Shown: one piece after another, positions 1 through 59,216 of the stretch
Layout of the letters: the number at the start of each line of letters is the position of its first letter
Position numbering within the stretch: the first letter of the stretch is position 1
Virus record (IMG/VR): IMGVR_UViG_3300010371_000029
Location: 1 to 64,000 of that record
Reading direction: 5' to 3' (one strand)
Length of the DNA stretch: 64,000 bases
Origin: a virus
Made by a program: the position numbers and the translations under genes
The notes under the pieces: model-generated
The model's input: only the letters and a program-made list of their open reading frames with translations
Databases searched by the model: none
What the model was told of the DNA's origin: nothing

Positions 1-365
1 ACGTTCATACCGATACTCACCAGTGTACACGTAACCGCTACCCCGTGCAATAGCTTCTTCGTCGTTCGGTCTGCTGCATCTCCTACCGCGACCATTGCCC
101 CCTCACAAGCTAACTGCGCGGCATCCATAACGATAGCCATAGCCCAAGCCATCCATAGGGGCGAATGGGTAAAGACGGCGAAGCCGTCTGCTAAGTGACT
201 CATGCTAACAGCCAGGAGCCCTGCTGCCAGGATACCCAATACCATAGCGGCACGTCGCCCCATCCGAGTACCCCTAGGGGTACGTCTAACCTTTACGCTA
301 CTCTTTCGGGTTACCTTACGGGTAGTGTTCCCTAGCTCATTCCCGATACGGTTGGCTGCAATCAT
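1..365 (-). CDS. Partial small membrane protein, 3' end beyond left edge
   Basis: Reading the minus strand from an ATG at 365 gives 121 open codons running off the window edge. AAGGAG lies six bases before the ATG. The first about 35 residues are basic and rich in Arg, Thr and Lys. They are followed by two hydrophobic stretches, around residues 41-56 and 64-85, that look like membrane helices separated by a short loop. The plus-strand open frames over this stretch are Pro/Arg-rich shadows. No family recognised. The segment is more GC-rich than most of the window. Confidence 0.6.
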   Translation of the reverse strand, partial: MIAANRIGNELGNTTRKVTRKSSVKVRRTPRGTRMGRRAAMVLGILAAGLLAVSMSHLADGFAVFTHSPLWMAWAMAIVMDAAQLACEGAMVAVGDAADRTTKKLLHGVAVTCTLVSIGMN

Positions 366-873
366 GGCTCGCTCCTTGCTGGTTGTCCATTGCCCCGTTG
401 CTGCCCCTATTATACATATCGTGTCAAGCGCGGTTTTTCTTAACTCCTTTTGCCATAAGGATTAAAAAATTTTTTACTGGTGCATTTGTACACTATATAG
501 GGGCGAGGGGGAGGGGGTTTTACCAGCGGGCTCCCAGACCCCGCCAGGGGCGGCCGGGCGGCCGGTAGTACATGCGCAACATGGCCCTACTTTTTGGAAA
601 TGGGGACAATAGCTGAAGCTATTAGTAAATTAGAATTAATAACTCTAAAGGATATTTATATTCCCTTAAGGTTTATGATGTATATAGTATCAACTCTGAA
701 ATAAAAACAGGAGTGATTTTTAATAGAAATGGGGACATTTAATAGCTCTAATGGTAATTTTTTAAATTCCGAGCTTTAGTGAGGAATGGTGGTTTCATAG
801 GGGAATGGGTTGAATAGATTAGGATAAGGTATATAGTAAACTAATTAATTTCATCGTAAGTAATTCTTACCTT
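366..873. other. Intergenic region between two minus-strand units
   Basis: No convincing gene. Around 490-575 is a GC-rich block containing CCGCC-AGG-GGCGG and related dyads. Positions 600-873 are very AT-rich. On the minus strand a TATAAT (409-414) lies before the left-edge gene, but the TTGACA at 422-427 is only 7 bases away, so this is not a normal promoter. Short minus-strand frames at 673-738 and near 850 begin with LTRP-like residues and may be decayed copies of the neighbouring family. Confidence 0.4.
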
Positions 874-1089
874 TTAATTACAAAAATCTACCTCATAAAT
901 TCCTGTCCCATCATCTTCGCCGGTAGGAGTTATTTTTCTTCTTAATTCAATTAACCATACATTATTTTCACTTTTAAATGGTACTCCATTCACAAAATAT
1001 CTAAAATAGGTTATTCCCTCTCTAAAAACCTCGGTCCCAATAGGGAAATGGGGACAACTTGGGCGAGTTGCTTTAAGCAACCTATACAT
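874..1089 (-). CDS. LTRP-family small protein (last of array)
   Basis: 71 residues starting MYRLLKATRP; Ala replaces the usual Leu/Ile before Thr-Arg. The ATG overlaps the stop of the preceding gene by 8 bases (ATGTATAG). Just upstream, GGAGC-ATA-GCTCC forms a perfect five-pair hairpin whose 5' arm is the only Shine-Dalgarno-like sequence. The C-terminal GGP motif is missing; the protein ends in acidic residues and VDFCN. It is the most promoter-distal member. Function unknown. Confidence 0.65.
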   Translation of the reverse strand: MYRLLKATRPSCPHFPIGTEVFREGITYFRYFVNGVPFKSENNVWLIELRRKITPTGEDDGTGIYEVDFCN

Positions 1090-1351
1090 GGGAGCTATGC
1101 TCCATAAAATAGGGATGGAATCTCAAAACTACTCCATTCCTAACTAATGAGAAGTGTTCTATATAGAAGGATACGTTTCCGTCAAAAGCACCGTATATTT
1201 CTTTCCTTAAAATACAGTGCCAACCTTGCCTTGATTTCTGTGGTGTCGCAGCCACAAAGAATCTACAATATTCAATATTGCCCAAAAATAATTCGCGGCC
1301 TATATAAAGGGGACAGACCGGTGGTCTAGTAAGTTTCAATAAATTATTCAG
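1082..1351 (-). CDS. LTRP-family small protein, probable CTG start
   Basis: Starting at CTG (1351) the protein is 89 residues beginning M-N-N-L-L-K-L-T-R-P, matching its paralogs exactly. An in-frame TTG at 1339 would cut into that motif. GGAG lies 7 bases before the CTG, and the CTG overlaps the upstream stop by 8 bases (CTGAATAA). The SD and start lie in a small hairpin (AGGAG-TAAA-CTCCT on the plus strand). It is rich in aromatic and basic residues, with four Cys including two near the N-terminus. Function unknown; the start choice is inference from the family. Confidence 0.6.
   Translation of the reverse strand: MNNLLKLTRPPVCPLYIGRELFLGNIEYCRFFVAATPQKSRQGWHCILRKEIYGAFDGNVSFYIEHFSLVRNGVVLRFHPYFMEHSSHV
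1091..1103 (-). promoter_or_regulatory. SD-sequestering hairpin before LTRP gene at 1089
   Basis: On the minus strand GGAGC-ATA-GCTCC: five perfect pairs and a three-base loop, one base before the ATG. The Shine-Dalgarno bases form the 5' arm. A ribosome finishing the upstream gene, which stops within the overlap, would pass through and open it. Confidence 0.45.
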
Positions 1352-2048
1352 GAGTAAACTCCTTTAAAAAAGAAAGTAAATCTTCTTTATGGGCCGCCAG
1401 CCCCTTATAGCGAAGACTTTCTTCGCTCATGGATTCTATATGGGCGATTACACTTTCCCTATCTAGTTGTGCTAGCGGTACAAGTTCTTGTCTCAAAATA
1501 AATAGCAGGCTTTTGGCCTGCGGAAGTCCAATAATATATTGATGTTCCCTTTTTAAATTAATATATGGGCGAGCCTTATCAAACTTAGCTTGCGTCAGCA
1601 ACGGATGGTGGTCTATATTGTCCGAAAATATTAAAGAATCTACGGTCCTATAAAACGGCCCCTTATAAATAGAAGTTGCAAGCAACTTCTTTGAAGACTT
1701 TAGAGGAAAGCTAGGTATTTCCTTATGAAGGTCATAAAATGACATTCCTATAGCTTTAGCTGGGTCCCAGCCGCTAGGCACGGCCATATTGGCGTAGGCT
1801 AAATAGTCATCACAATGAACACAAATATCCTCGGCTATAGACATACATATTAAATCTAAATCACAATATCTTCCAGCCGCGCCGAGTTTATTTATAAGTA
1901 ACTCACATACAGCTTTCTCTACTTCTGGGGCCAGTTCATGTTGGCATATATATATTTTCTTAACTGGGATATCTGTTTTTCTTAATTTAATGTCGTCTAA
2001 GGCGATTTTACTAAGTGCTGGAAGCACTGAATATGGTGGAACCCTCAT
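1344..2048 (-). CDS. Hypothetical protein, 234 aa
   Basis: A soluble protein with no signal or membrane segment, and not an LTRP member. It has a mixed helix-rich sequence, several His and Cys in the middle (CVHCDD near residue 75; DHHPLL near 145) and an acidic helical C-terminus. The ATG overlaps the stop of the preceding LTRP gene by four bases (ATGA), and its own stop lies inside the start region of the next LTRP gene. It may be a metal-binding enzyme because of the clustered His and Cys, but I recognise no family. Confidence 0.6.
   Translation of the reverse strand: MRVPPYSVLPALSKIALDDIKLRKTDIPVKKIYICQHELAPEVEKAVCELLINKLGAAGRYCDLDLICMSIAEDICVHCDDYLAYANMAVPSGWDPAKAIGMSFYDLHKEIPSFPLKSSKKLLATSIYKGPFYRTVDSLIFSDNIDHHPLLTQAKFDKARPYINLKREHQYIIGLPQAKSLLFILRQELVPLAQLDRESVIAHIESMSEESLRYKGLAAHKEDLLSFLKEFTPE
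1350..1363 (-). promoter_or_regulatory. SD/start hairpin for CTG-start LTRP gene
   Basis: Minus-strand AGGAG-TTTA-CTCCT followed by G: five pairs. The 5' arm is the Shine-Dalgarno sequence, and the last two bases of the 3' arm are the first two bases of the proposed CTG start. The upstream gene terminates inside the start region. Confidence 0.45.
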
Positions 2049-2305
2049 AATTCAATATTATATCCCAAATTAATAAGTCTACGTCCATAAGGCTCTAAAC
2101 TGTAAGTCTGTAAAAAACTTTTAATTTGAACGGGCATTGTCCAATAATGTTTACAATCACCAATAATTAATTTTTCTATACATAGAATTTGATTATTTTC
2201 TATTAATACAACTTCTCTTTTATCTTTTGGGTCCCCATAATAATATAAAATCATGCCAACTCGAACAATATTATTTGGGCGAGTTAAACGTAATAAATTA
2301 TTCAT
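2045..2305 (-). CDS. LTRP-family small protein, 86 aa
   Basis: Begins MNNLLRLTRP. The ATG overlaps the stop of the upstream gene by 8 bases (ATGAATAA), with no clear Shine-Dalgarno sequence, so reinitiation after termination is the likely mode of translation. The middle has a Tyr-rich strand (MILYYYGD) and alternating hydrophobic residues typical of a small beta protein. The C-terminus YGRRLINLGY is a variant of the family's GGPxLxExGY ending. Function unknown. Confidence 0.7.
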   Translation of the reverse strand: MNNLLRLTRPNNIVRVGMILYYYGDPKDKREVVLIENNQILCIEKLIIGDCKHYWTMPVQIKSFLQTYSLEPYGRRLINLGYNIEL

Positions 2306-2570
2306 TGTAAAATACTACATAAGATACTAATGTACAATTTGTGGATTCAAACACTAATCGGGGATTTTGTTCTAATAATTCTTTGGGGACAATTTTTCTA
2401 ATTGCTTCCCAGAACTTATAAGTTGCCAATAAATTATGGCCGCGTTCGCTCATCATTTCCCAATGAAGTTTATAAATCTCTTCTAAGTTTTCTACTGGGA
2501 TTAGCCACCGACCGATTTCGTTGGGGCCTTTTGTGGGTTGCAATGTTTCTTTTTTACTAAAAAACCACAT
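2298..2570 (-). CDS. Hypothetical protein, 90 aa
   Basis: Starts at an ATG preceded by AGGAG six bases upstream, so it has its own good ribosome site between the 38-residue LTRP gene and the next one. It is a helical, charged protein with Trp residues at 22, 38 and 54 and no Cys cluster except one near the end. No family recognised and no LTRP motif. It ends inside the start of the following LTRP gene. Confidence 0.6.
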   Translation of the reverse strand: MWFFSKKETLQPTKGPNEIGRWLIPVENLEEIYKLHWEMMSERGHNLLATYKFWEAIRKIVPKELLEQNPRLVFESTNCTLVSYVVFYNE

Positions 2571-2578
2571 TTTTACTC

Positions 2579-2695
2579 CTATTTAAGTTCCGAACCATAA
2601 TTGCTCAATATTCTATATTTATTGCCAGTAAATTTTCCAATTACTATCCGACCCCTTGCGTCAGGTGGTCTGGTAATTTTTAAAATCTGGTTCAC
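2579..2695 (-). CDS. LTRP-family mini protein, 38 aa, GTG start
   Basis: A GTG at 2695 overlaps the upstream stop (GTGA) and opens a 38-residue protein beginning M-N-Q-I-L-K-I-T-R-P-P. It keeps the N-terminal motif and a first beta-like stretch (RIVIG...KYRIL) but ends before any C-terminal motif, so it is about half the size of its relatives. TAG at 2579-2581. Either a natural short member or a truncated copy. Confidence 0.6.
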   Translation of the reverse strand: MNQILKITRPPDARGRIVIGKFTGNKYRILSNYGSELK

Positions 2696-2919
2696 ACTGG
2701 TCCCCCATCTTCACGATGTAAATTATAAGTAAAAGCTTTTATGATATCTCCAATCCTGTAGAATGTATAATTAGTTTTTAATACTTCACAAGAAATTCTT
2801 CTATCTCCACCGTTGCCATAAGGTTCCGAAAGAGCCCGGTAAATATTTCCGGTTTTGTGACTTATAAGTATGGACCCCGTGAGACCTTTAGGTCTAGTTA
2901 ATTTCAATATAGATTTCAT
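2692..2919 (-). CDS. LTRP-family small protein, 75 aa
   Basis: Begins MKSILKLTRPKG. The ATG overlaps the upstream stop (ATGA), with GGGA about 5 bases before it. The protein ends in EDGGPV, the start of the family's C-terminal motif cut short by its stop. The middle contains ILISHKTGNIYR, a plausible strand-turn-strand. Function unknown. Confidence 0.7.
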   Translation of the reverse strand: MKSILKLTRPKGLTGSILISHKTGNIYRALSEPYGNGGDRRISCEVLKTNYTFYRIGDIIKAFTYNLHREDGGPV

Positions 2920-3149
2920 GAATTTCCCTTATTGAGTGTTGGTCCACCCCTTGATAAACTCAGGAACCTTATATCTTGTTTTATATAACTCCATAAAAGT
3001 TCGTGACTACATGATGAATATCTATCTATATCTACTTTATTGTCATAAATCGAACTTGTCGCTATATAATAATATTCTTCTTGAGAATTAATATAAAGTA
3101 CAGTACCGGGCCTTACCTTCATACGTGTAAGTTTTAATAATTGATACAT
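2916..3149 (-). CDS. LTRP-family small protein, 77 aa
   Basis: Begins MYQLLKLTRM, with Met in place of the usual Pro. It overlaps the 3' end of the HAD gene by 16 bases. It contains GTVLYIN and a Tyr-rich patch (EEYYYIATS), and ends SRGGPTLNKGNS, a recognisable C-terminal motif. Function unknown. Confidence 0.7.
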   Translation of the reverse strand: MYQLLKLTRMKVRPGTVLYINSQEEYYYIATSSIYDNKVDIDRYSSCSHELLWSYIKQDIRFLSLSRGGPTLNKGNS

Positions 3150-3736
3150 TTGTTTATTTTCTCTACAAGTTCTATAAAATTATTGGTCTCAAATTCAAAA
3201 TGGTCATTCTGACCATAGATATCTTCGCCATTCCTTTTAATTAGGGCTGTTCTCATCCCTACCGAGCGGGCACCGCGTAGGTCGAAATTATGGGCCGCAC
3301 ACATAAGCGTCTCACTAGGTTCTACGCCTAAAGACTTACACGCCCCCAAATATACCTTAGGGTCTGGTTTAAAAGCACCGAAGTCTGTAGACGAAAAACA
3401 ATAATCAAATAATCCATATCTTCTATTAATAGAACATAGTATCCTGGGGGTTGCATTTGATAATGCTACCGTAGGTATTTTAAAATTTTTAATAAAATAA
3501 CTATCCTCCCATAGAGGGGCAAACTCCATAGCATTAATAAATTTATCATAGTTTTCGGGGCTAAGATAATCTTTTAAAGCTTCTTCAAAATTCAAATCTT
3601 GATAGTTGTGAGCGACCGCCCCATAGGCCCTTAGAGTTTCTTTTACCTTGCTTTCGGTTCCGAAAGCTTGTAATAAAGAATATTGAACGTTTACTAACGT
3701 TCCAAAAACATCAAAAAAAATATAACGAATTTTCAT
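3134..3736 (-). CDS. HAD-superfamily hydrolase (haloacid dehalogenase-like phosphatase)
   Basis: A 200-residue protein with the HAD motifs in order. Motif I is FFDVFGTLV at about residues 7-15, and the DVFGT form is usual in the 2-haloacid dehalogenase branch. Motif II is VALSNAT near 90-96. The motif III region has KPDPKVY near 123, and motif IV is CAAHNFDLRGARSVGM near 145. Family knowledge makes it a phosphatase or dehalogenase of a small metabolite, but the substrate cannot be told. In the classic motif DxFDGT the second Asp is the acid/base; here it is Phe, as in dehalogenase-type members. It sits between two LTRP genes with ATGA-type overlap at its 5' end. Confidence 0.85.
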   Translation of the reverse strand: MKIRYIFFDVFGTLVNVQYSLLQAFGTESKVKETLRAYGAVAHNYQDLNFEEALKDYLSPENYDKFINAMEFAPLWEDSYFIKNFKIPTVALSNATPRILCSINRRYGLFDYCFSSTDFGAFKPDPKVYLGACKSLGVEPSETLMCAAHNFDLRGARSVGMRTALIKRNGEDIYGQNDHFEFETNNFIELVEKINKCINY

Positions 3737-4011
3737 AAAAGAGGTTTCCCGTTTTCTCGTAACATATTATCCGCCGAAAACATACCAGTTTCACTAAATT
3801 GTCTACCGCCCGGCTCTAGTTGATAATGTCCGATTGGTTCCGAAGTATCTCTATATATAGTATTGTTTTGATATCTATCTAATTCAAAATATCCATCTTT
3901 TTTAAAAGAAACAATTATATAATATTGACTCCCGGTACAAGGGCAATATATTTTATCGCCCACTTTAATAATTGGGACCTTTGGTCTAGTAATTCGCAAA
4001 AGATTATTCAT
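3733..4011 (-). CDS. LTRP-family small protein, 92 aa
   Basis: Begins MNNLLRITRPK; the ATG touches the upstream TGA (TGATG). The longest clear member. It has GDKIYCPCTGSQYYIIV with a CxC, and a C-terminal EPGGRQFSETGMF variant followed by about 15 extra residues. No clear Shine-Dalgarno site, so it probably depends on translation of the upstream gene. Confidence 0.7.
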   Translation of the reverse strand: MNNLLRITRPKVPIIKVGDKIYCPCTGSQYYIIVSFKKDGYFELDRYQNNTIYRDTSEPIGHYQLEPGGRQFSETGMFSADNMLRENGKPLL

Positions 4012-4694
4012 CAGAGTCTAGCTATAACAGTAAAGAGTTCACTCATATAGTCTACAACGAAATTAAATATACCGGGGCTAATATTTTCGCTGTTACCAGC
4101 TATGTTTAAAACTTTTATATTCTTTTCAATAATCCAATTTATTACCGTTTCAATTGGAAGAGCGTTAGTTATATTAATATCTAGAAACGGTTTATTATAG
4201 CAAGATATAGCTCTTTCCGTACAAATTTCGCCCGGCGAATTAAAATTACTAGCGAATCTTAATGTCCCGTCAGAATCTCGCGCGTTCTCATAGGTGCGGG
4301 GCGCATATTTGGAGGAACTATGCTCGGTTACACCATACCTCTCAGCGTACTCCGGCTTTGGTCCTTCTAAAGTAATGAACCCTTTCGGCATAACGCCTCC
4401 GGTTTTATAACCAAAACTTTGGCCGACATGTAACCCCGCCAAATCAGCGCCGCACTGACCACCGCTACGAATTTTTCTTAACGGAAACCGCCATTTATAT
4501 TCGGGCACTTCTATTTTAGGTCCTACTTCGATTTTTCGTTCTTCAAATATTTCATCAGACGCTACTGCTTCCCAAGGATAACTAGACTCTCCGTTATAGT
4601 AACCAACAGTCCAAGGTTCAGTTGGACCATCCTTGACATATTCTTTACCTGACCAGACCATAAATCTAATTAGATAATATCCTTTATCTCTCAA
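4011..4694 (-). CDS. GYYWVR-type domain fused to cpYpsA (putative molybdenum carrier) domain
   Basis: Two domains. Residues about 1-65 are like two small proteins encoded nearby (5641-5829 and 6345-6545): M-R-x-x-G-Y-Y at the start and EVGPKIEVP at the end. Residues about 70-190 match the circularly permuted YpsA family (Pfam 'putative molybdenum carrier'): IRSGGQCGADLAGL, KGFITLEGP, YGVTEHSSSKYAPRT and NARDSDGTLRF. That family has a Rossmann-like nucleotide-binding fold; its true ligand is not established. I choose TTG at 4694 because AGGAGG lies 8 bases upstream and it gives the MRDKGYY start seen in relatives; an in-frame TTG lies at 4712. Confidence 0.8.
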   Translation of the reverse strand: MRDKGYYLIRFMVWSGKEYVKDGPTEPWTVGYYNGESSYPWEAVASDEIFEERKIEVGPKIEVPEYKWRFPLRKIRSGGQCGADLAGLHVGQSFGYKTGGVMPKGFITLEGPKPEYAERYGVTEHSSSKYAPRTYENARDSDGTLRFASNFNSPGEICTERAISCYNKPFLDINITNALPIETVINWIIEKNIKVLNIAGNSENISPGIFNFVVDYMSELFTVIARL

Positions 4695-4932
4695 AATAAT
4701 AACCCTCCTCAATTAAATAAGGACCATCTGGTACTATTCTATTTTCATTTAAATATCCATAAAAACTATTAGAATCTGGCAAATTATTATTAATATTCCA
4801 AAGTATTACTTCTTTATTTTCATAATCTATACTTTTAAGTTCAAATAAGCATGGTCCTGTACGAAAATATGTTAAGAGCCCAGGTTCTATAAGAAAGGGC
4901 TGCCCCCTCGTAAGTTTAAGCATCTCCCTCAT
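4684..4932 (-). CDS. LTRP-family small protein, 82 aa
   Basis: Begins MREMLKLTRGQ, with Gly in place of Pro. It overlaps the upstream stop by four bases (ATGA). It contains GLLTYFRTG and ends PDGPYLIEEGYYFER, a clear family C-terminus. Its 3' end carries the AGGAGG that serves the next gene's TTG start. Function unknown. Confidence 0.7.
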   Translation of the reverse strand: MREMLKLTRGQPFLIEPGLLTYFRTGPCLFELKSIDYENKEVILWNINNNLPDSNSFYGYLNENRIVPDGPYLIEEGYYFER

Positions 4933-5168
4933 ATAGTAAATCCCAACTCATCTAGAGCAGGACCTCCTTGTTCTAAAGCCCAATATTTAAAGAATGATTC
5001 CTGTTTTTGCCAATTAATTATAGAACTTCCTTTTAATTGTTTCATGTATATGAATTCGTTAGTTAATTGATGAACTATCCAAATATGTTCTTGGGCTCTA
5101 AAATAAAGAGGTTGTCCTTCATACAATTTATTTTTAATTGGTCTAGTTATTCTTAATAAATTATTCAT
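4929..5168 (-). CDS. LTRP-family small protein, 79 aa
   Basis: Begins MNNLLRITRPIK from the ATG at 5168. A TTG two codons upstream is possible, but the ATG gives the family start and an 8-base overlap with the upstream stop (ATGAATAA). It has GQPLYFRAQEHIWIV and ends EQGGPALDELGFTI. Function unknown. Confidence 0.7.
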   Translation of the reverse strand: MNNLLRITRPIKNKLYEGQPLYFRAQEHIWIVHQLTNEFIYMKQLKGSSIINWQKQESFFKYWALEQGGPALDELGFTI

Positions 5169-5409
5169 CTTCAAACCTATAACCTAGCTCAGCTAGGGTT
5201 GGCCCACCTATTTCTAAATGATTTTTATGTAAAACTCCCTCGCGAGTATTTCCAGTTTGACAATTATGCGTTAGATTTTTAATTTCGACCCAATTTATTT
5301 TTAAAACTTTAACTATTTCATACTCATCTGTCCCGGTTACAAAAAATGTTCGGAGGCCCGGTTTAATAATTTTTGACTCGTCCCGAGTCAATTTAAGTAA
5401 AGCTTTCAT
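5161..5409 (-). CDS. LTRP-family small protein, 82 aa
   Basis: Begins MKALLKLTRDE, with Asp instead of Pro. It overlaps the upstream gene's end by 17 bases. It contains GLRTFFVTGTDEYEIVKV and ends IGGPTLAELGYRFEDE, one of the best copies of the C-terminal motif. Function unknown. Confidence 0.7.
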   Translation of the reverse strand: MKALLKLTRDESKIIKPGLRTFFVTGTDEYEIVKVLKINWVEIKNLTHNCQTGNTREGVLHKNHLEIGGPTLAELGYRFEDE

Positions 5410-5623
5410 CTACTAACCTCATTTGATTTATTTCTATACATTGTTCCCATAAGTTAGTTTTACAAAGAACTTGTCCACAATCTTGTCCTGGTAATATATA
5501 AAAAATAAAACCTGGATTTATCTTAGATATAAATAAAATATAATAAGTATTTCCTACTATATATTTATATTTTTGACCCACCTTAGGAAACGGTAGTCTG
5601 GTAAGTTTCAATAAATTATACAA
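5393..5623 (-). CDS. LTRP-family small protein, probable TTG start
   Basis: From TTG at 5623 the protein is 76 residues beginning M-Y-N-L-L-K-L-T-R-L-P, with AAAGGA about 7 bases upstream. A TTG at 5644 would add seven residues but has no ribosome site. The upstream gene stops 18 bases before this start. The middle is Ile/Tyr/Phe-rich. The C-terminus (EINQMRLVDESFT) has lost the GGP motif. Function unknown. Confidence 0.6.
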   Translation of the reverse strand: MYNLLKLTRLPFPKVGQKYKYIVGNTYYILFISKINPGFIFYILPGQDCGQVLCKTNLWEQCIEINQMRLVDESFT

Positions 5624-5635
5624 GGATGAATCCTT
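5622..5635 (-). promoter_or_regulatory. SD/start hairpin for TTG-start LTRP gene
   Basis: Minus-strand AAGGAT-TC-ATCCTT followed by G: up to six pairs, realistically five with a four-base loop. The 5' arm is the Shine-Dalgarno sequence, and the final TT of the 3' arm are the first bases of the TTG start. Confidence 0.45.
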
Positions 5636-5640
5636 TAAGG

Positions 5641-5829
5641 TCAAGCATTGACCGGCTCCTTTATCTTTCGACCAATCTTTTCAAAATTAATATCGGCATA
5701 CCAGATTACGGTCCCCGGAATCAACCAGCTACAAGGCCAGTCTTTTTTTAGATATTGGGCCACAATCCATATGGGCGAGCCTCGCAGGCGAACCCAGTAA
5801 AATCCCGGCTGTCTTATTGAATTTCCCAC
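5641..5829 (-). CDS. GYYWVR-type small phage protein
   Basis: 62 residues from a GTG with AGGAG about 7 bases upstream. The core is PGFYWVRLRGSPIWIVAQY, then Trp-rich residues, an acidic turn and FEKIGRKIKEPV. It is related to the protein at 6345-6545 and to the N-terminal domain at 4011-4694. Short phage proteins with a GYYWVR...GPxIxxP layout recur in phage genomes as unknowns; I know no tested function. It overlaps the preceding LTRP gene by 16 bases. Confidence 0.65.
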   Translation of the reverse strand: MGNSIRQPGFYWVRLRGSPIWIVAQYLKKDWPCSWLIPGTVIWYADINFEKIGRKIKEPVNA

Positions 5830-6062
5830 CCTGTCTCTCCTAAAGTTGGCCCATCGAGATAAAGTTTAAAGTGTCCTATATTACCAGTTTTGGTTGTGAA
5901 ATCTTTTTCTCTACTATCAATTCTTATAGCATCTGCAATTAACAAATTTTCATTAAATTCTGTAATTACATGGCATAATTGTTTATTACAATCACAATAT
6001 AAGGTCGTTCCGACCGTTAAGACGGGTTTTGTGGGTCTAGTTAATTTAAGGAGATTATTCAA
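5814..6062 (-). CDS. LTRP-family small protein, probable TTG start
   Basis: From TTG at 6062 it is 82 residues beginning M-N-N-L-L-K-L-T-R-P. AAAGGA lies upstream inside a hairpin, and the start overlaps the upstream stop by 8 bases (TTGAATAA). Longer in-frame starts exist (for example 6107), but they lie wholly inside the previous gene and would hide the family N-terminus. It contains GTTLYCDCNKQLCHVI with three Cys and ends LDGPTLGETGWEIQ. Function unknown. Confidence 0.65.
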   Translation of the reverse strand: MNNLLKLTRPTKPVLTVGTTLYCDCNKQLCHVITEFNENLLIADAIRIDSREKDFTTKTGNIGHFKLYLDGPTLGETGWEIQ

Positions 6063-6348
6063 AGGATAAATCCTTTCCATATCCCATTTCACGAAGCGAC
6101 GGACCATTTGGGGACAAACTTAATGTGTCAAGATTTGACCACCCATTACCTTTATAATGTTGAAATCCATTAGTTTGAAGAATCGTTCCTTCTATTGAAT
6201 ATCTAATACCATCATCTTCAAATTCTATAAATTTAAAAGTTTCATTTGAAAGGAAAGTCCAATAAGTAATATTAACTTTATATAATCTAGCCCCCACAGG
6301 AATGGGTTGAAGAGGGGGCGGTCTAGTGAGTTTTAGCAAACTCCTCAT
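6055..6348 (-). CDS. LTRP-family small protein, 97 aa (first of array)
   Basis: Begins MRSLLKLTRPPP. The ATG overlaps the upstream stop (ATGA), with AAAAGGA 9-10 bases before it. It contains GARLYKVNITYWTFLS and a C-terminal NGPSLREMGYGK followed by six residues that cover the next gene's hairpin and start. It is the promoter-proximal member. Function unknown. Confidence 0.7.
   Translation of the reverse strand: MRSLLKLTRPPPLQPIPVGARLYKVNITYWTFLSNETFKFIEFEDDGIRYSIEGTILQTNGFQHYKGNGWSNLDTLSLSPNGPSLREMGYGKDLSFE
6061..6076 (-). promoter_or_regulatory. SD/start hairpin for TTG-start LTRP gene
   Basis: Minus-strand AAAGGAT-TT-ATCCTTT followed by G: up to seven pairs. The 5' arm is the Shine-Dalgarno sequence and the 3' arm ends in the TT of the TTG start. 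The whole hairpin lies inside the last codons of the upstream gene, so translation of that gene must melt it. Confidence 0.5.
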
Positions 6349-6545
6349 GAAGATAATCCTTTTGGTCTTATAACTTCTGGCCCAACTTCTTCAATATATT
6401 TATCGTTATAAGGTATTGGGTCACCTATTTTTATCCAGCAAGGATATTTTTCATTCCAAGATGCAATTTCCCACCGACATGTTTCATGAATATCACCAAA
6501 TTGTTGGTATTTTATTTTTACCCAATAATAACCTGAAGTTCTCAT
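6345..6545 (-). CDS. GYYWVR-type small phage protein
   Basis: 66 residues: MRTSGYYWVKIK, a Trp/Cys patch (CRWEIASWNEKYPCWIKIG), an acidic turn and IEEVGPEVIRPKG. It has the same layout as 5641-5829 and as the first 65 residues of 4011-4694. ATGA overlaps at both ends tie it to its neighbours. Function unknown. Confidence 0.65.
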   Translation of the reverse strand: MRTSGYYWVKIKYQQFGDIHETCRWEIASWNEKYPCWIKIGDPIPYNDKYIEEVGPEVIRPKGLSS

Positions 6546-6701: not shown

Positions 6702-6878
6702 TTATCTACCTTTCGGCCTCCCCACCCGTTTTTCTATTCCCATTCGTTGACGCATCTTTTTAACCGCCCAAATAGATACTGGCGACCCCCTCATTTGGGT
6801 TAGTATAGATGCTACCTTCCTATCTATTATAGAGTGCCCAAGCTCTTTTATCAACGCTAACTCTTTATCTGACCACAT
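6702..6878 (-). CDS. Small DNA-binding protein with AT-hook-like tail, 58 aa
   Basis: First gene after the promoter at 6905-6933. ATG at 6878 with AAAGGGG about 8 bases upstream. Residues 1-48 look like a short helix-turn-helix of the kind used to scan DNA (WSDKELALIKELG..IDRKVASILTQ..SPVSIWAVKKMRQRMG). The last residues, VGRPKGR, match the AT-hook core GRP with flanking basic residues. It is likely a regulator of this operon or of host DNA; the target is unknown. Confidence 0.6.
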   Translation of the reverse strand: MWSDKELALIKELGHSIIDRKVASILTQMRGSPVSIWAVKKMRQRMGIEKRVGRPKGR

Positions 6879-6904: not shown

Positions 6905-6933
6905 ATTATACCACGGGACTGCGCCCATGTCAA
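6905..6933 (-). promoter_or_regulatory. Consensus sigma70-type promoter for leftward operon
   Basis: Minus-strand TTGACA at 6928-6933, exactly 17 bases, then TATAAT at 6905-6910. All twelve box bases match the bacterial housekeeping consensus. Transcription would start near 6898, about 20 bases before the ATG at 6878. No other promoter of this quality is visible in 874-6878, so the whole array is probably one early or host-polymerase-driven transcript. Confidence 0.8.
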
Positions 6934-7012: not shown

Positions 7013-7165
7013 ATGACAAATATTAGGTCCGAACTAATAATTAAAGAGTCAGCCGAGTTAGAGTCTGTACTTGCTTCCACGAAAGAAAGTGTGGAACCCG
7101 ACTTTAGCACTATGACAGAAAAGGAAGTGGAAGCATGGATATTGGCCCACACGAAATCTCAATAA
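7013..7165 (+). CDS. Short acidic protein, 50 aa, first rightward gene
   Basis: ATG with GGAG six bases upstream; TAA at 7163-7165. Charged and Ser/Glu-rich, probably helical, ending in a Trp-containing segment (EKEVEAWILAHTKSQ). Its last 31 bases overlap the start of the sigma-like gene in another frame, suggesting translational coupling. No family recognised. Confidence 0.5.
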   Translation: MTNIRSELIIKESAELESVLASTKESVEPDFSTMTEKEVEAWILAHTKSQ

Positions 7166-7692
7166 TAGAGAAAATTTCTAAACGTTTCTCAAAAAAGTTC
7201 CGGTTCGGCTATCACGACACGGAAGATATAGAACAACAGGCGGCCCTTTATGCCTTAGAGGGGATTAAGGCTTACCTACCAGAGAAGGGTGACCTTGAAA
7301 ATTTCCTCTGCGTTCATGTTCGTAATCGTTTGATGAACTTCAAACGCGATAACTACTTCCGATTGGACGCGCCATGTACTGGCTGCCCCTTTAATAAAAA
7401 CGACGTTTGTACCGCCTTTGAGGACAAGATGGATTGTGAGCTATTCGCCGCTTGGCTACGGAAACGTGAAGTTAGGAAGAACCTAATGAACCCGGCCGAA
7501 TCATATTACGAGAGCGGCAGCCACGCCCCTAATGAGATTGACCGCCGCGAAACCCTTTCCAAGATTAATTCCCGGTTAGACCCACTTCTTCGGGCCGATT
7601 TTCTCCGCATCCTTGACGGGGTGGCTGTCCCCAAACATAGAAAGAATAAAGTTAGGCAAGCTGTTCAGGAGATTTTAGATGGTAAAGCGTAA
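7135..7692 (+). CDS. Sigma factor-like transcription protein
   Basis: 185 residues. Residues about 22-76 resemble sigma70 region 2: YHDTEDIEQQAALYALEGI, then a helix with a run of Phe/Leu and VRNRLMNFKRDNYFR, the part that in sigma factors binds polymerase and the -10 element. It is followed by CTGCPFNKNDVC, then a further Cys (residue 102) a few residues on. This is a possible four-Cys metal site not standard for sigma factors. The C-terminal LDPLLRADFLRILDGV..RKNKVRQAVQEIL could be a degenerate region 4 helix-turn-helix. A likely role is directing late transcription of the rightward genes it heads. Family assignment is by pattern only. Confidence 0.55.
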   Translation: MDIGPHEISIIEKISKRFSKKFRFGYHDTEDIEQQAALYALEGIKAYLPEKGDLENFLCVHVRNRLMNFKRDNYFRLDAPCTGCPFNKNDVCTAFEDKMDCELFAAWLRKREVRKNLMNPAESYYESGSHAPNEIDRRETLSKINSRLDPLLRADFLRILDGVAVPKHRKNKVRQAVQEILDGKA

Positions 7693-12667: not shown

Positions 12668-13109
12668 CTTCCTCATCATCAGGGACACTCGCGAACAAAA
12701 AGGACACGGTTATTACTTCGACAATATGGTCACGGAAACCTTAGATGTAGGTGATTACTGCATAAAAGGTTACGAAAATATAATCTTCTTAGACCGCAAA
12801 GCCTCAATTCTTGAATGGGCAAAAAATATTACCGAAGCACGGTTTGAGCGAGAACTTGAACGGGCCATGAACCATCGCTATAAATATTTACTTTTTGAAT
12901 TCTACGCTGAGGAACTTACCAATTTTCCTCACGGTGTTTCCATACCATATAACTTGCGCGGCAAGTTGAAGATGAGTGGGGCATTTCTATTAAAAAGAAC
13001 TTTTGAACTTTGTGTTAAATTTGGAGTTGCACCTATTTTTGCTGGGACAGCCGGGAAACAATTTACTAAAAGTTTATTCAAACGAATTTACGAAAAGGAA
13101 ACCACATGA
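12657..13109 (+). CDS. ERCC4-type nuclease domain protein
   Basis: 150 residues with the XPF/ERCC4 nuclease layout: IIRDTREQKGHGYYF, LDVGDYCI, then LDRKASILEWAKNI in place of the usual ERKxxxD, then a helical ERELERAM. The Asp of DTREQ, GDY and the RK pair are present; the position of the last acidic residue is less regular than in archetypes. Such stand-alone domains in phages are thought to cut branched DNA. It is immediately before the terminase (ATGA overlap), which fits a role in resolving packaging substrates. Confidence 0.75.
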   Translation: METDFLIIRDTREQKGHGYYFDNMVTETLDVGDYCIKGYENIIFLDRKASILEWAKNITEARFERELERAMNHRYKYLLFEFYAEELTNFPHGVSIPYNLRGKLKMSGAFLLKRTFELCVKFGVAPIFAGTAGKQFTKSLFKRIYEKETT

Positions 13110-16100
13110 AAAAAGAAGGATTAATGAATCCTGACATTATTCAGGACTTGTTAACCTTTGCACACCTTGAACTTGGCGATACTTCTAAAATTATAACTAA
13201 AAATCCCTTTGAAGAATTTCCCAATGAATATTGGTTAGACCAGCCTCATCTCGCAGTAACAAAACTCATGATGAATTTGGACTATCTTCCCTTTATTTGT
13301 AAACATATACTCAACATAGAAATTTTGCCTTTCCAACATGTAGTGATTCGCGAGCTATGGAATCGTCCCTTTCCAATGTTAGTAGGAACAAGAGGCTTGA
13401 GTAAAACGTGGCAGCTAGCAGTTTATTCATTGCTTAGAGCTTTGTTGATTCCTGGGCGAAAAATTATTATTTGTGGAGCCGCATTTCGTCAAGCAAAACT
13501 TATCTTTGAATATACCGATACCTTGTACCGCAATAGTCCAATACTAAGAGATATATGTTCTGGCTCCATCCGGGGGGGTCCTCGTCGCGATATTGATAGA
13601 GTTCAATTTACTATTGGAGAAAGTGAAATAACTGGGTTACCTTTGGGGGACGGTTCCCGTATCCGTGGCCTCAGGTCGCATGATACGATTTGTGACGAGT
13701 TCAGTTGCGTCGGCGTAAACTCTTTAGTAGAAACAAGTTACGGCATCGTTCGGATACAAGATACTAAGGAAAACTTCAGAGATTTAGAATTAATTAACAG
13801 AAACGGTATGTATGAAACGCCTATTTTGTTTAATGAAACTCCTCCGACAGATGCTTATAAAATTACGGTAAGAAATGGGTATAGTTTTATATGTTCGGCT
13901 CATCATCAAGTTGAAACAACGGATGGATTTAAGATTGCTAAAGATTTAACAGAAAACGATTATTTGTGGTTTGATAATAAATATAAGTTTCCAGAAAAAT
14001 ATATCCAGTATAAGGATATTACAGTAGATGAAAATTTGGGTTGGTTAATGGGTATAATTCAAGCAGAAGGATGTTTGACGGGAAAACATCATATTTCGGT
14101 TCATATGACAGATGCAGATTGTATTAATAGAATTATTGATTCTGTACAAATGATTGATTCTTCTATAAGTAAAAGTTTTTATACTAGAGACGCATATATT
14201 GATAATAGAGGTTGGAATTGTAAAGAGGCTTATACAACCCATATTTGTAGTGTGCCATTTAAACAAAAATTAGAATATTTAGGTATGGAGCCAGTTACAA
14301 GTCATTATAAAAAAGTTCCTTGGTCTATATTAAGGTCTCCGAAGTCAGTTGTTATAAGATTCCTAGCGGGTCTTTTTGAGGGGGATGGCAGTGCTTTTAT
14401 ATTTAAAAATAGAGATAACGATAAATCTTTAGGAGTTGCTTTTTATAGCGTATCTAAACAATTTTGTCAAGAGGTACAATTTTTATTACATAAATTAGAT
14501 ATAAGCTCTTATATTAATAAAAGAAAAGGTACTTTAGGAGATAAGAATGACCAACATTTAGTACGTATGAATGGCTTACATGCTAAAAGATTTATGGAAT
14601 TAGTAAATATTCCAAAATGGGAACATATTCTTGAGAATTGTAGAGTTTATCCAAGCAGAAAAAAGAAAGTTATTTATTTGAAAGATAAAGATAGGTGGAC
14701 TACTAGTATTAAAATAAACGGTAAATATAAACGTTATGGTACTTACAAAACTAAAGAAGAAGCTTTAGAAGCATATGAAAAGAATAACCAACCTTTAAAT
14801 TTACCCGTGACTAAAGTAGAAAAATTAGAAGGAAAACACGTTTTATATGATTATGGGCTTCCTTTTACTCATAGTTTCTATGCAAACGGTTTTATTCAAC
14901 ATAATTCTATTCCGCCCGAAATCTACAGCGTTGTAATTGCCGGCTTTGGGGCTGTGTCTTCAAATCCTGTGGAAGCATTTAAGCAATCAGCAAAAATAGA
15001 AGCTTTAAATAAATTGGGGATTGAAAATCCAGAGGACGTATTAGGTGTTTCGTCAATTGTTCCTAACCAATCTATTATAGCCGGAACGGCAAGTTATGCT
15101 TTTGAGTCATATGGTCGTTACTGGCAACGTTATAAAGCTATTATAGAATCTCAGGGTGACCCAGAAAAATTAAAGGAGATTTTCCACGGAGAGGTTCCCA
15201 CTAATTTTAATTGGAAAGATTATTCGATTATCAGGATTCCTTATCAGGCGTTACCCAAAAATTTCATGGACGAAAAAACAATTATGAGGGCAAAGGCCAC
15301 TAGTGAGCCGAGTCAGTTCGCGAGGGAATATTTAGCCTGTTTTCCCTCAGATAGTCAAGGGTTTTTCAAGCGTAGTTTAATCGTTCGTGCTACGGCCCGT
15401 ATGGATAACCCTTTAGTACTTCAAAGTGGTCCGGTTAAGTTTGAAGCTACCTTAAATGGGAGTATGGATAGGAAATATATTATAGGTATTGACCCTGCTT
15501 CAGAAAAGGACAACTTTGCCATAGTTGTATTAGAAATTTGGCCCGACCATAGAAGAGTAGTATATGGGTGGACCATAACTCGCCAGTTGTATAAACAGAA
15601 GATTAAAGAAGGGGCTGCGCCCGAGTTGAATTATTATGATTATTGTGCTCGAAAAATTAGAGATTTAATGAAGGTATTTCCCTGTGACAGAATCGCCATA
15701 GATAGTCAGGGTGGTGGTATTGCGGTTATGGAATCTCTTTCTGATAATTCTAAACTTCAGGAAGGTGAAAGGCGCATCTGGCCCTTGATTAATGACGATA
15801 AGCCAAAAGACACAGATAACTATGAGGGTTTACATATTGTAGACGTTATAAACTTTTCTAACGCTCAATGGGTCAGTGAAGCCAATCATGGATTAAAACG
15901 AGACCTTCAAGATAACATGTTATTCATGCCTTATCTAGACCCGATTTCGTTAGAATTAGCACATATAGAAGATGAGAAAAATTCGCGACATTATGATACG
16001 CTCGAAGACGCTACTATGGAGATTGAGGCTTTGCGCGACGAACTTTGTACTATTGTTATGACCTGTACTTCTTCTGGTAGAGAAAGCTGGGATACGCCCG

Positions 16101-16366
16101 AAACCAAAACAGAGGGCTCTAAGAAGGGAAGGTTAAGGAAAGATAGATATTCTGCCTTATTAATGGCGAACATGACAGCACGTCAAATTCACAGAGCCGA
16201 ACCCGTTGCCGAATACAATCCCGCTGGTGGTATAGCTGGGCAAGCTAGGGGGAACAGGGGCAATTCACTTTATGTAAACGCGCCCGCCTGGGCTAAAGAC
16301 TATGCCTCCCAAGTTGGAGTAAATAGACACCATTCCGGTCCCGATGGAACGAGGATATTTTATTGA
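13106..16366 (+). CDS. terL: Terminase large subunit, interrupted by an intein
   Basis: 1086 residues translated; about 686 after removal of the intein (residues 201-600). The ATPase part has an atypical Walker A (GTRGLSKTWQ near 95) and Walker B ending ICDEFS at residue 200, directly at the intein junction. The nuclease part has IIGIDPASEKDNFAIVVLE, IAIDSQGGGIAVME and YDTLEDATMEIEAL, the acidic residues of an RNase H-like fold. It pumps DNA into proheads and cuts concatemers. Activity requires intein splicing. The stop TGA overlaps the TTG start of the methyltransferase gene. Confidence 0.92.
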   Translation: MKKEGLMNPDIIQDLLTFAHLELGDTSKIITKNPFEEFPNEYWLDQPHLAVTKLMMNLDYLPFICKHILNIEILPFQHVVIRELWNRPFPMLVGTRGLSKTWQLAVYSLLRALLIPGRKIIICGAAFRQAKLIFEYTDTLYRNSPILRDICSGSIRGGPRRDIDRVQFTIGESEITGLPLGDGSRIRGLRSHDTICDEFSCVGVNSLVETSYGIVRIQDTKENFRDLELINRNGMYETPILFNETPPTDAYKITVRNGYSFICSAHHQVETTDGFKIAKDLTENDYLWFDNKYKFPEKYIQYKDITVDENLGWLMGIIQAEGCLTGKHHISVHMTDADCINRIIDSVQMIDSSISKSFYTRDAYIDNRGWNCKEAYTTHICSVPFKQKLEYLGMEPVTSHYKKVPWSILRSPKSVVIRFLAGLFEGDGSAFIFKNRDNDKSLGVAFYSVSKQFCQEVQFLLHKLDISSYINKRKGTLGDKNDQHLVRMNGLHAKRFMELVNIPKWEHILENCRVYPSRKKKVIYLKDKDRWTTSIKINGKYKRYGTYKTKEEALEAYEKNNQPLNLPVTKVEKLEGKHVLYDYGLPFTHSFYANGFIQHNSIPPEIYSVVIAGFGAVSSNPVEAFKQSAKIEALNKLGIENPEDVLGVSSIVPNQSIIAGTASYAFESYGRYWQRYKAIIESQGDPEKLKEIFHGEVPTNFNWKDYSIIRIPYQALPKNFMDEKTIMRAKATSEPSQFAREYLACFPSDSQGFFKRSLIVRATARMDNPLVLQSGPVKFEATLNGSMDRKYIIGIDPASEKDNFAIVVLEIWPDHRRVVYGWTITRQLYKQKIKEGAAPELNYYDYCARKIRDLMKVFPCDRIAIDSQGGGIAVMESLSDNSKLQEGERRIWPLINDDKPKDTDNYEGLHIVDVINFSNAQWVSEANHGLKRDLQDNMLFMPYLDPISLELAHIEDEKNSRHYDTLEDATMEIEALRDELCTIVMTCTSSGRESWDTPETKTEGSKKGRLRKDRYSALLMANMTARQIHRAEPVAEYNPAGGIAGQARGNRGNSLYVNAPAWAKDYASQVGVNRHHSGPDGTRIFY
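13706..14905 (+). mobile_element. Intein with LAGLIDADG endonuclease in terL
   Basis: 400 residues inserted between DEFS and SIPPEIY of the terminase. It starts with Cys201 (CVGVNSLVETSYGIVRI), has SAHHQVET as the block B His region, and ends FTHSFYANGFIQHN before Ser601: the Cys/His-Asn/Ser set expected for splicing. Endonuclease motifs are LGWLMGIIQAEGCL near 312 and FLAGLFEGDGSAF near 418. A segment near 521-562 (DRWTTSIKINGKYKRYGTYK, then KEEALEAY) resembles an AP2-type DNA-binding unit. It is more AT-rich than the exteins. Confidence 0.92.
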
Positions 16367-59177: not shown

Positions 59178-59216
59178 TCAGGTTTTGGGGCGAGTTATTC
59201 TTAACATTTCATACAT
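59178..59216 (-). CDS. LTRP mini cistron, 12 aa
   Basis: ATG at 59216 overlapping the stop of the nucleotidyltransferase gene by 8 bases (ATGTATGA). It reads M-Y-E-M-L-R-I-T-R-P-K-T then TGA. It carries the complete N-terminal consensus of the array at 874-6348 but nothing else, and ends four bases before the next ATG. Either the leftover of a full gene or a functional leader joining two cistrons. Confidence 0.5.
   Translation of the reverse strand: MYEMLRITRPKT

Follow-up and report, generated by a model that had tools for sequence, protein, structure and literature searches.

A family of about 28 diverged small phage proteins with a constant N-terminal LTRP peptide

The window analyzed here, bases 1-64000, is half of the 130,268-bp phage record IMGVR_UViG_3300010371_000029, and all positions are given in window/genome numbering. 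Within 874-6348, 13 minus-strand open reading frames (ORFs) start M-x-x-L-L-[KR]-[LIA]-T-R, often followed by P (the LTRP tag), and they belong to a leftward operon that spans 6878-874 and starts behind a promoter at 6933-6905 (Table 1). An earlier description made from the letters alone (the sequence-only reading) had listed thirteen short genes with a shared N-terminal peptide, interleaved with a phosphatase, a cpYpsA protein and GYYWVR proteins under one consensus promoter. All of this was borne out: each of the 13 ORFs carries the motif, the phosphatase and cpYpsA genes match PF00702 and PF12694, GYYWVK and GFYWVR proteins are encoded at 6345 and 5641, and the promoter is a TTGACA-17-TATAAT with an extended TG. 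A HODM_asu-like gene (1344-2048), absent from that list, is interleaved as well. Non-ATG starts fit the tag in three array members (CTG in 1082-1351, TTG in 5393-5623 and 5814-6062), AAAGGAG precedes the CTG start, and LTRP gene 4929 starts at position 5168. The C-terminal GGPxLxExGY, said to be frequent, stood only in part, being strict in five array members (6055, 5814, 5161, 4929, 4684), partial in about three (3733, 2045, 2916) and faint or missing in the remaining ones; this motif is restricted to the array subfamily. The array does hold thirteen members as described, but this boundary was too narrow: a profile of the 13 members and pattern scans of the record gave 15 further tagged genes elsewhere in the genome, all on the minus strand. 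By our best reading, the LTRP proteins form one lineage-specific protein family, with about 28 genes in this tailed phage of 130 kb.

Motif-bearing genes numbered 25 on the minus strand and none on the plus strand, and none was found in any of 15 second-order Markov surrogates. The sequence-only reading had staked the family on enrichment over shuffled small ORFs; indeed, the motif was present in 24/367 small minus-strand ORFs, against a mean of 0.05 with shuffled N-termini (maximum 2; 2000 shuffles). The distance of the tag from the gene start is fixed, with the start codon always three residues ahead of the first leucine-like position. Across 27 members no variation occurs at L5, T8 or R9. 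This constancy is partly built in by the first scan pattern, which accepted only R as residue 9 and only T/S/C as residue 8; the relaxed scan added a single variant, 126447, whose residue 9 is A.

This exact placement at gene starts would also suit a shared DNA or RNA element that happens to be translated (a start-associated sequence, a recombination or a translation module), and T8 fits such an element too, since it favors ACT (19/27) with a codon identity of 0.51 versus 0.29 expected, a value reached in only 2/2000 simulations. However, the 27 copies use six codons for L5 and five for R9, with codon identities of 0.22 and 0.27 against 0.26 and 0.24 from codon usage, the DNA upstream of the tagged starts is near background, and an Rfam search gave no match. 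The L5 and R9 codons are thus as free as usage allows, and selection acts on the peptide and not on DNA or RNA: the tag is kept by protein-level selection. We reject the nucleic-acid element, largely refuted already by this synonymous variation, as very improbable, and of the two options that the sequence-only reading had offered for the conserved N-terminus, the translation module is disfavored on the same grounds.

Mean identity was about 70% in the tag (all members) versus about 18% among array bodies without it. Leave-one-out profiles lacking the tag recovered 7/12 tested array bodies at E<1e-3 (5814 was left off the gene list); 874, 2692 and 5393 were missed and 1082 was weak (0.25). In pairwise comparisons without the tag, links were found between tandem neighbors (4684-5161, 5e-10; 72291-72543, 4e-9, with 72802 also linked to these two; 874-1082, 6e-7) and between distant loci (72543-128012, 3e-7; 1082-92934, 3.5e-5). 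The array and distal subfamilies connect mainly via 92934, so homology between subfamilies is weaker by sequence than within each. These comparisons indicate that without the tag the bodies form a single homology network, in which most array bodies are homologous. Moreover, three members are shortened (2579, 38 amino acids (aa); 126714, 32 aa; 59178, frame broken directly after the tag), which shows that loss accompanies gain in this family; it grew via tandem and dispersed duplication and sheds members through truncation.

Two AlphaFold2 models agree on the body. For array member 5161-5409, built on the array alignment, the mean predicted local distance difference test score (pLDDT) was 79.8, with strands at residues 20-23, 29-37, 40-45 and 55-59 and a helix turn at 72-75; for 72802-73080 of the distal subfamily it was 72.0, and the order of elements matched the array model. 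Unrelated predicted structures had been named as grounds against a family, and the two models instead have the same strand order. The top PDB matches in Foldseek were mainly SH3-like barrels (ribosomal KOW, Spt5, SH3, Tudor, CAP-Gly), all weak (E >= 0.18), and those in BFVD were small uncharacterised phage proteins, also weak (best E 0.02). The bodies are thus predicted to be, probably, a small SH3-like beta-barrel.

Barrel strands had a pLDDT of roughly 77-88 in the two models, versus about 58 and about 48 for the tag: residues 1-10 of 5161-5409 average 58 and have no structure, and in 72802-73080 the tag core (residues 6-9) falls below 50. The most conserved peptide is therefore the least ordered part of both models and resembles a linear motif, although the shallow alignments weaken this likeness, and such anatomy supports the other option of the sequence-only reading, a shared interaction tag. 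If the conserved N-terminus instead belonged to the fold or helped to build an oligomer interface, as a barrel-completing or swapped strand, these would be ordinary expanded accessory barrels with no address tag; an L-L-K-L-T-R pattern could suit a strand, and a barrel-like body is present in every full-length tagged member. Yet the tag is conserved far above the barrel, its distance from the start codon never varies, and in neither model does this least confident N-terminal part form a strand, so that we hold this explanation to be unlikely, but a serious contender.

The distal members are placed differently from the array. The 72-kb trio (72291, 72543, 72802) has a DNA polymerase III alpha gene on one side and an RNase_T exonuclease on the other, RecA is flanked by 89254, 89481 and 90726, 76420 follows a D12 (Dam-type) methyltransferase, and a second cluster of tagged genes is found near the other contig end. 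These neighbors would be expected if the members were cofactors of phage DNA metabolism, with barrels docking on polymerase, RecA and methylase and a tag binding a replisome hub: three members sit between the DnaE halves beside the exonuclease, three flank RecA and one follows the methylase. However, thirteen members lie in an array away from replication genes, and such neighbors are expected for any early-strand gene; we give this explanation a slender chance. As for the polymerase itself, it looks split into 73064-74902 (PHP and alpha domain, by Pfam) and 69061-70626 (motifs, by eye), within 69061-74902 on the minus strand, and the halves are separated by three LTRP genes, the exonuclease and a 331-aa ORF.

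The IMG/VR entry names no end repeats, but a minus-strand frame is open without a stop from base 1 across to base 130268. This single open frame across the contig ends suggests a circular or circularly permuted genome; if the ends join, 18/28 tagged genes would head the leftward strand.

Table 1. Tagged genes, their promoter and the interleaved genes (window/genome positions).
Feature	Position	Strand	Remarks
Sigma70-type extended promoter TTGACA-N17-TATAAT, into array operon	6905..6933	-	12/12 match, TG ahead of -10
Operon gene 1, 58 aa, no family	6702..6878	-	
Small membrane-like protein, 52 aa	6542..6700	-	
GYYWVK small protein, non-LTRP	6345..6545	-	
LTRP member 1, MRSLLKLTRP; NGPSLREMGY	6055..6348	-	
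LTRP member 2, TTG start; DGPTLGETGW	5814..6062	-	
GFYWVR small protein, non-LTRP	5641..5829	-	
LTRP member 3, TTG start	5393..5623	-	
LTRP member 4, AlphaFold2-modelled	5161..5409	-	mean pLDDT 79.8, tag ~58
LTRP member 5, GGPALDELGF	4929..5168	-	
LTRP member 6	4684..4932	-	body related to 5161, E 5e-10
cpYpsA (SLOG) protein, interleaved	4011..4712	-	PF12694 E=7.6e-29
LTRP member 7	3733..4011	-	profile of 13 members
HAD-family hydrolase, interleaved	3134..3736	-	PF00702 E=4.9e-11
LTRP member 8	2916..3149	-	profile of 13 members
LTRP member 9	2692..2919	-	profile of 13 members
LTRP member 10, truncated, 38 aa, tandem sister of 2692	2579..2695	-	body E=2e-4 to 2692; stop within profile match
90-aa protein without tag	2298..2570	-	
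LTRP member 11	2045..2305	-	profile of 13 members
HODM_asu-like (haem-dependent oxidative N-demethylase alpha-like) protein, interleaved	1344..2048	-	PF11927 E=2.7e-14
LTRP member 12, probable CTG start	1082..1351	-	
LTRP member 13, MYRLLKATRP	874..1089	-	
Distal members	59178 (12 aa), 72291, 72543, 72802, 76420, 89254, 89481	-	profile/pattern scans
Distal members	90726, 92934, 94148 (147 aa), 125954, 126169	-	profile/pattern scans
Distal members	126447 (variant LKITA), 126714 (32 aa), 128012	-	profile/pattern scans
12-aa ORF MYEMLRITRPKT, tag only, overlaps upstream gene's stop	59178..59216	-	frame broken straight after tag

Several other features of the record were observed. GC content is 52% at window 1-500, against 31-40% across the array region and about 38% genome-wide, and a membrane-protein-like ORF in this 1-500 region extends past the left end of the window. 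The rightward-strand early gene 7135-7692 (+) weakly resembles sigma-70 region 2 (2.2e-4, under the cut-off) and could encode a phage sigma factor that serves late genes. The terminase large subunit (window 13106-16366, +, 1086 aa) has an HNH/endonuclease-like insert at about residues 291-601 between the terminase parts, likely an intein or an embedded endonuclease. In the ribonucleotide reductase large subunit (genome 96577-100041, -, 1154 aa), PHROG matches fall in separated blocks (26-297 and 607-972), and this protein may carry an insert; the sole IMG/VR relative found for it was about 50% identical. Beside LTRP gene 128012 lies a calcineurin-like phosphoesterase (genome 128266-128913, -), which strongly matches the PADLOC candidate PDC-S10 (3.3e-58).

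When relatives of the family were sought, Pfam and PHROGs gave no family for the LTRP members tested, and PADLOC, which consists mainly of defence and not counter-defence models, gave no match for two of them. Two members compared by tblastn with 50,697 phages returned nothing usable; a DNA-level search of phages with the array region, IMG/VR queries with two single members and cpYpsA, and DnaE used as bait found no relative. Degenerate DNA patterns of the tag in IMG/VR and GTDB genomes gave 67 stretches, all isolated chance matches and no tagged family, and no phage family with such a tag was found in the open-access literature. A 41-kb genome reached through the ribonucleotide reductase was rejected as a related phage, as it had little in common but this enzyme and no LTRP match. 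Pattern scans demand particular codons and the searched sets may omit very near records, so unseen relatives may exist. By the routes used, neither Pfam and PHROGs nor the genomes scanned (sequenced phages, IMG/VR, GTDB) gave a relative, and a lineage-specific family is the best reading.

Taken with these results, we propose, at a probability of about 0.42, that the LTRP proteins are early small-barrel effectors with a constant N-terminal docking or targeting peptide, in a family that is both expanding and decaying. The tag would be an exposed linear motif through which all members reach a single shared partner or location, and the variable barrel would bind different targets. RNA polymerase, the replisome and the virion core are examples of hubs, of host or phage, that could be this shared partner or location. 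The array would then be a diversified collection of accessory effectors acting early, with host takeover or counter-defence as their most likely use; such a role is plausible on circumstantial grounds, namely a consensus host-type promoter, an operon of small diverged genes and gene turnover. Several observations weigh against this proposal. No family search (Pfam, PHROGs, PADLOC) ties any member to defence or counter-defence, with no such model matched among the members tested; the searches gave no second genome for checking whether tag and array are conserved; the distal members amid DNA-metabolism genes would fit a replication-linked role too; the Foldseek matches are weak, with best E-values of 0.18 in PDB and 0.02 in BFVD; and low pLDDT from alignments of 11-14 sequences is no proof of disorder.

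Further, and more tentatively, LL[KR][LI]TRP may be a new class of phage N-terminal sorting or docking signal, with one receptor, of host or phage, reading it on the whole repertoire of diversified effectors. If so, new target specificities would be gained by duplicating and mutating the barrel only. With about 28 diversified small proteins of one genome sharing this constant peptide, there is a way into the poorly understood early genes of phages: a single peptide pull-down could identify any partner that all of them have in common. The peptide would also offer a simple test of effector-repertoire expansion, in which the address is kept and the cargo varied, in a family without a database relative.

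Among known systems, small SH3/KOW-like phage proteins (such as BFVD A0A516MKZ8 and A0A9E7QF76) and the KOW-domain protein A0A3Q9R4U5 of Streptomyces phage Gilson have a similar predicted barrel of 50-75 residues, but no significant sequence match connects these small proteins with the LTRP family. Nip, a counter-defence protein of Bacillus phage phi3T with predicted SH3-like domains (PMC11984713), is likened by those predicted domains only, as it is 279 aa long and has an HU-like dimerisation domain. In Cluster K mycobacteriophages, too, a signal recurs where many non-structural genes of one phage lineage begin; however, their start-associated sequences are untranslated 13-bp DNA repeats located 3-7 bp before the start (PMC3203893), whereas the LTRP tag is a peptide repeat with free synonymous codons and no common upstream DNA.

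The internal proteins of T4 (IPI, IPII, IPIII) are diverse defence proteins that have only a capsid targeting sequence in common (PMC3012670), and IPIII is required on strain ECOR17 (PMC9391042). By analogy, the LTRP tag might be a virion-targeting peptide, with head-packaged members injected as first-response anti-defence factors, and the mature body size is similar (IPI* = 76 residues). This has a small chance in our estimate, as no Peptidase_S78 prohead protease was found in the record (the only protease family searched), no T4-like protein was matched, the promoter is host-type and the strand is one of DNA-metabolism and not structural genes. We claim no membership of the T4 group: the tag is different, homology to known internal proteins is not detectable (no Pfam or PHROGs match for members), the genes number 28 rather than a few, and the body is predicted to be an SH3-like barrel. 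As an analogy, the T4 internal proteins would be the closest working precedent, in that both sets join a short conserved N-terminal peptide to otherwise highly diverse small proteins (PMC3012670, PMC9391042), in our family with 70% identity in the tag against about 18% in the bodies.
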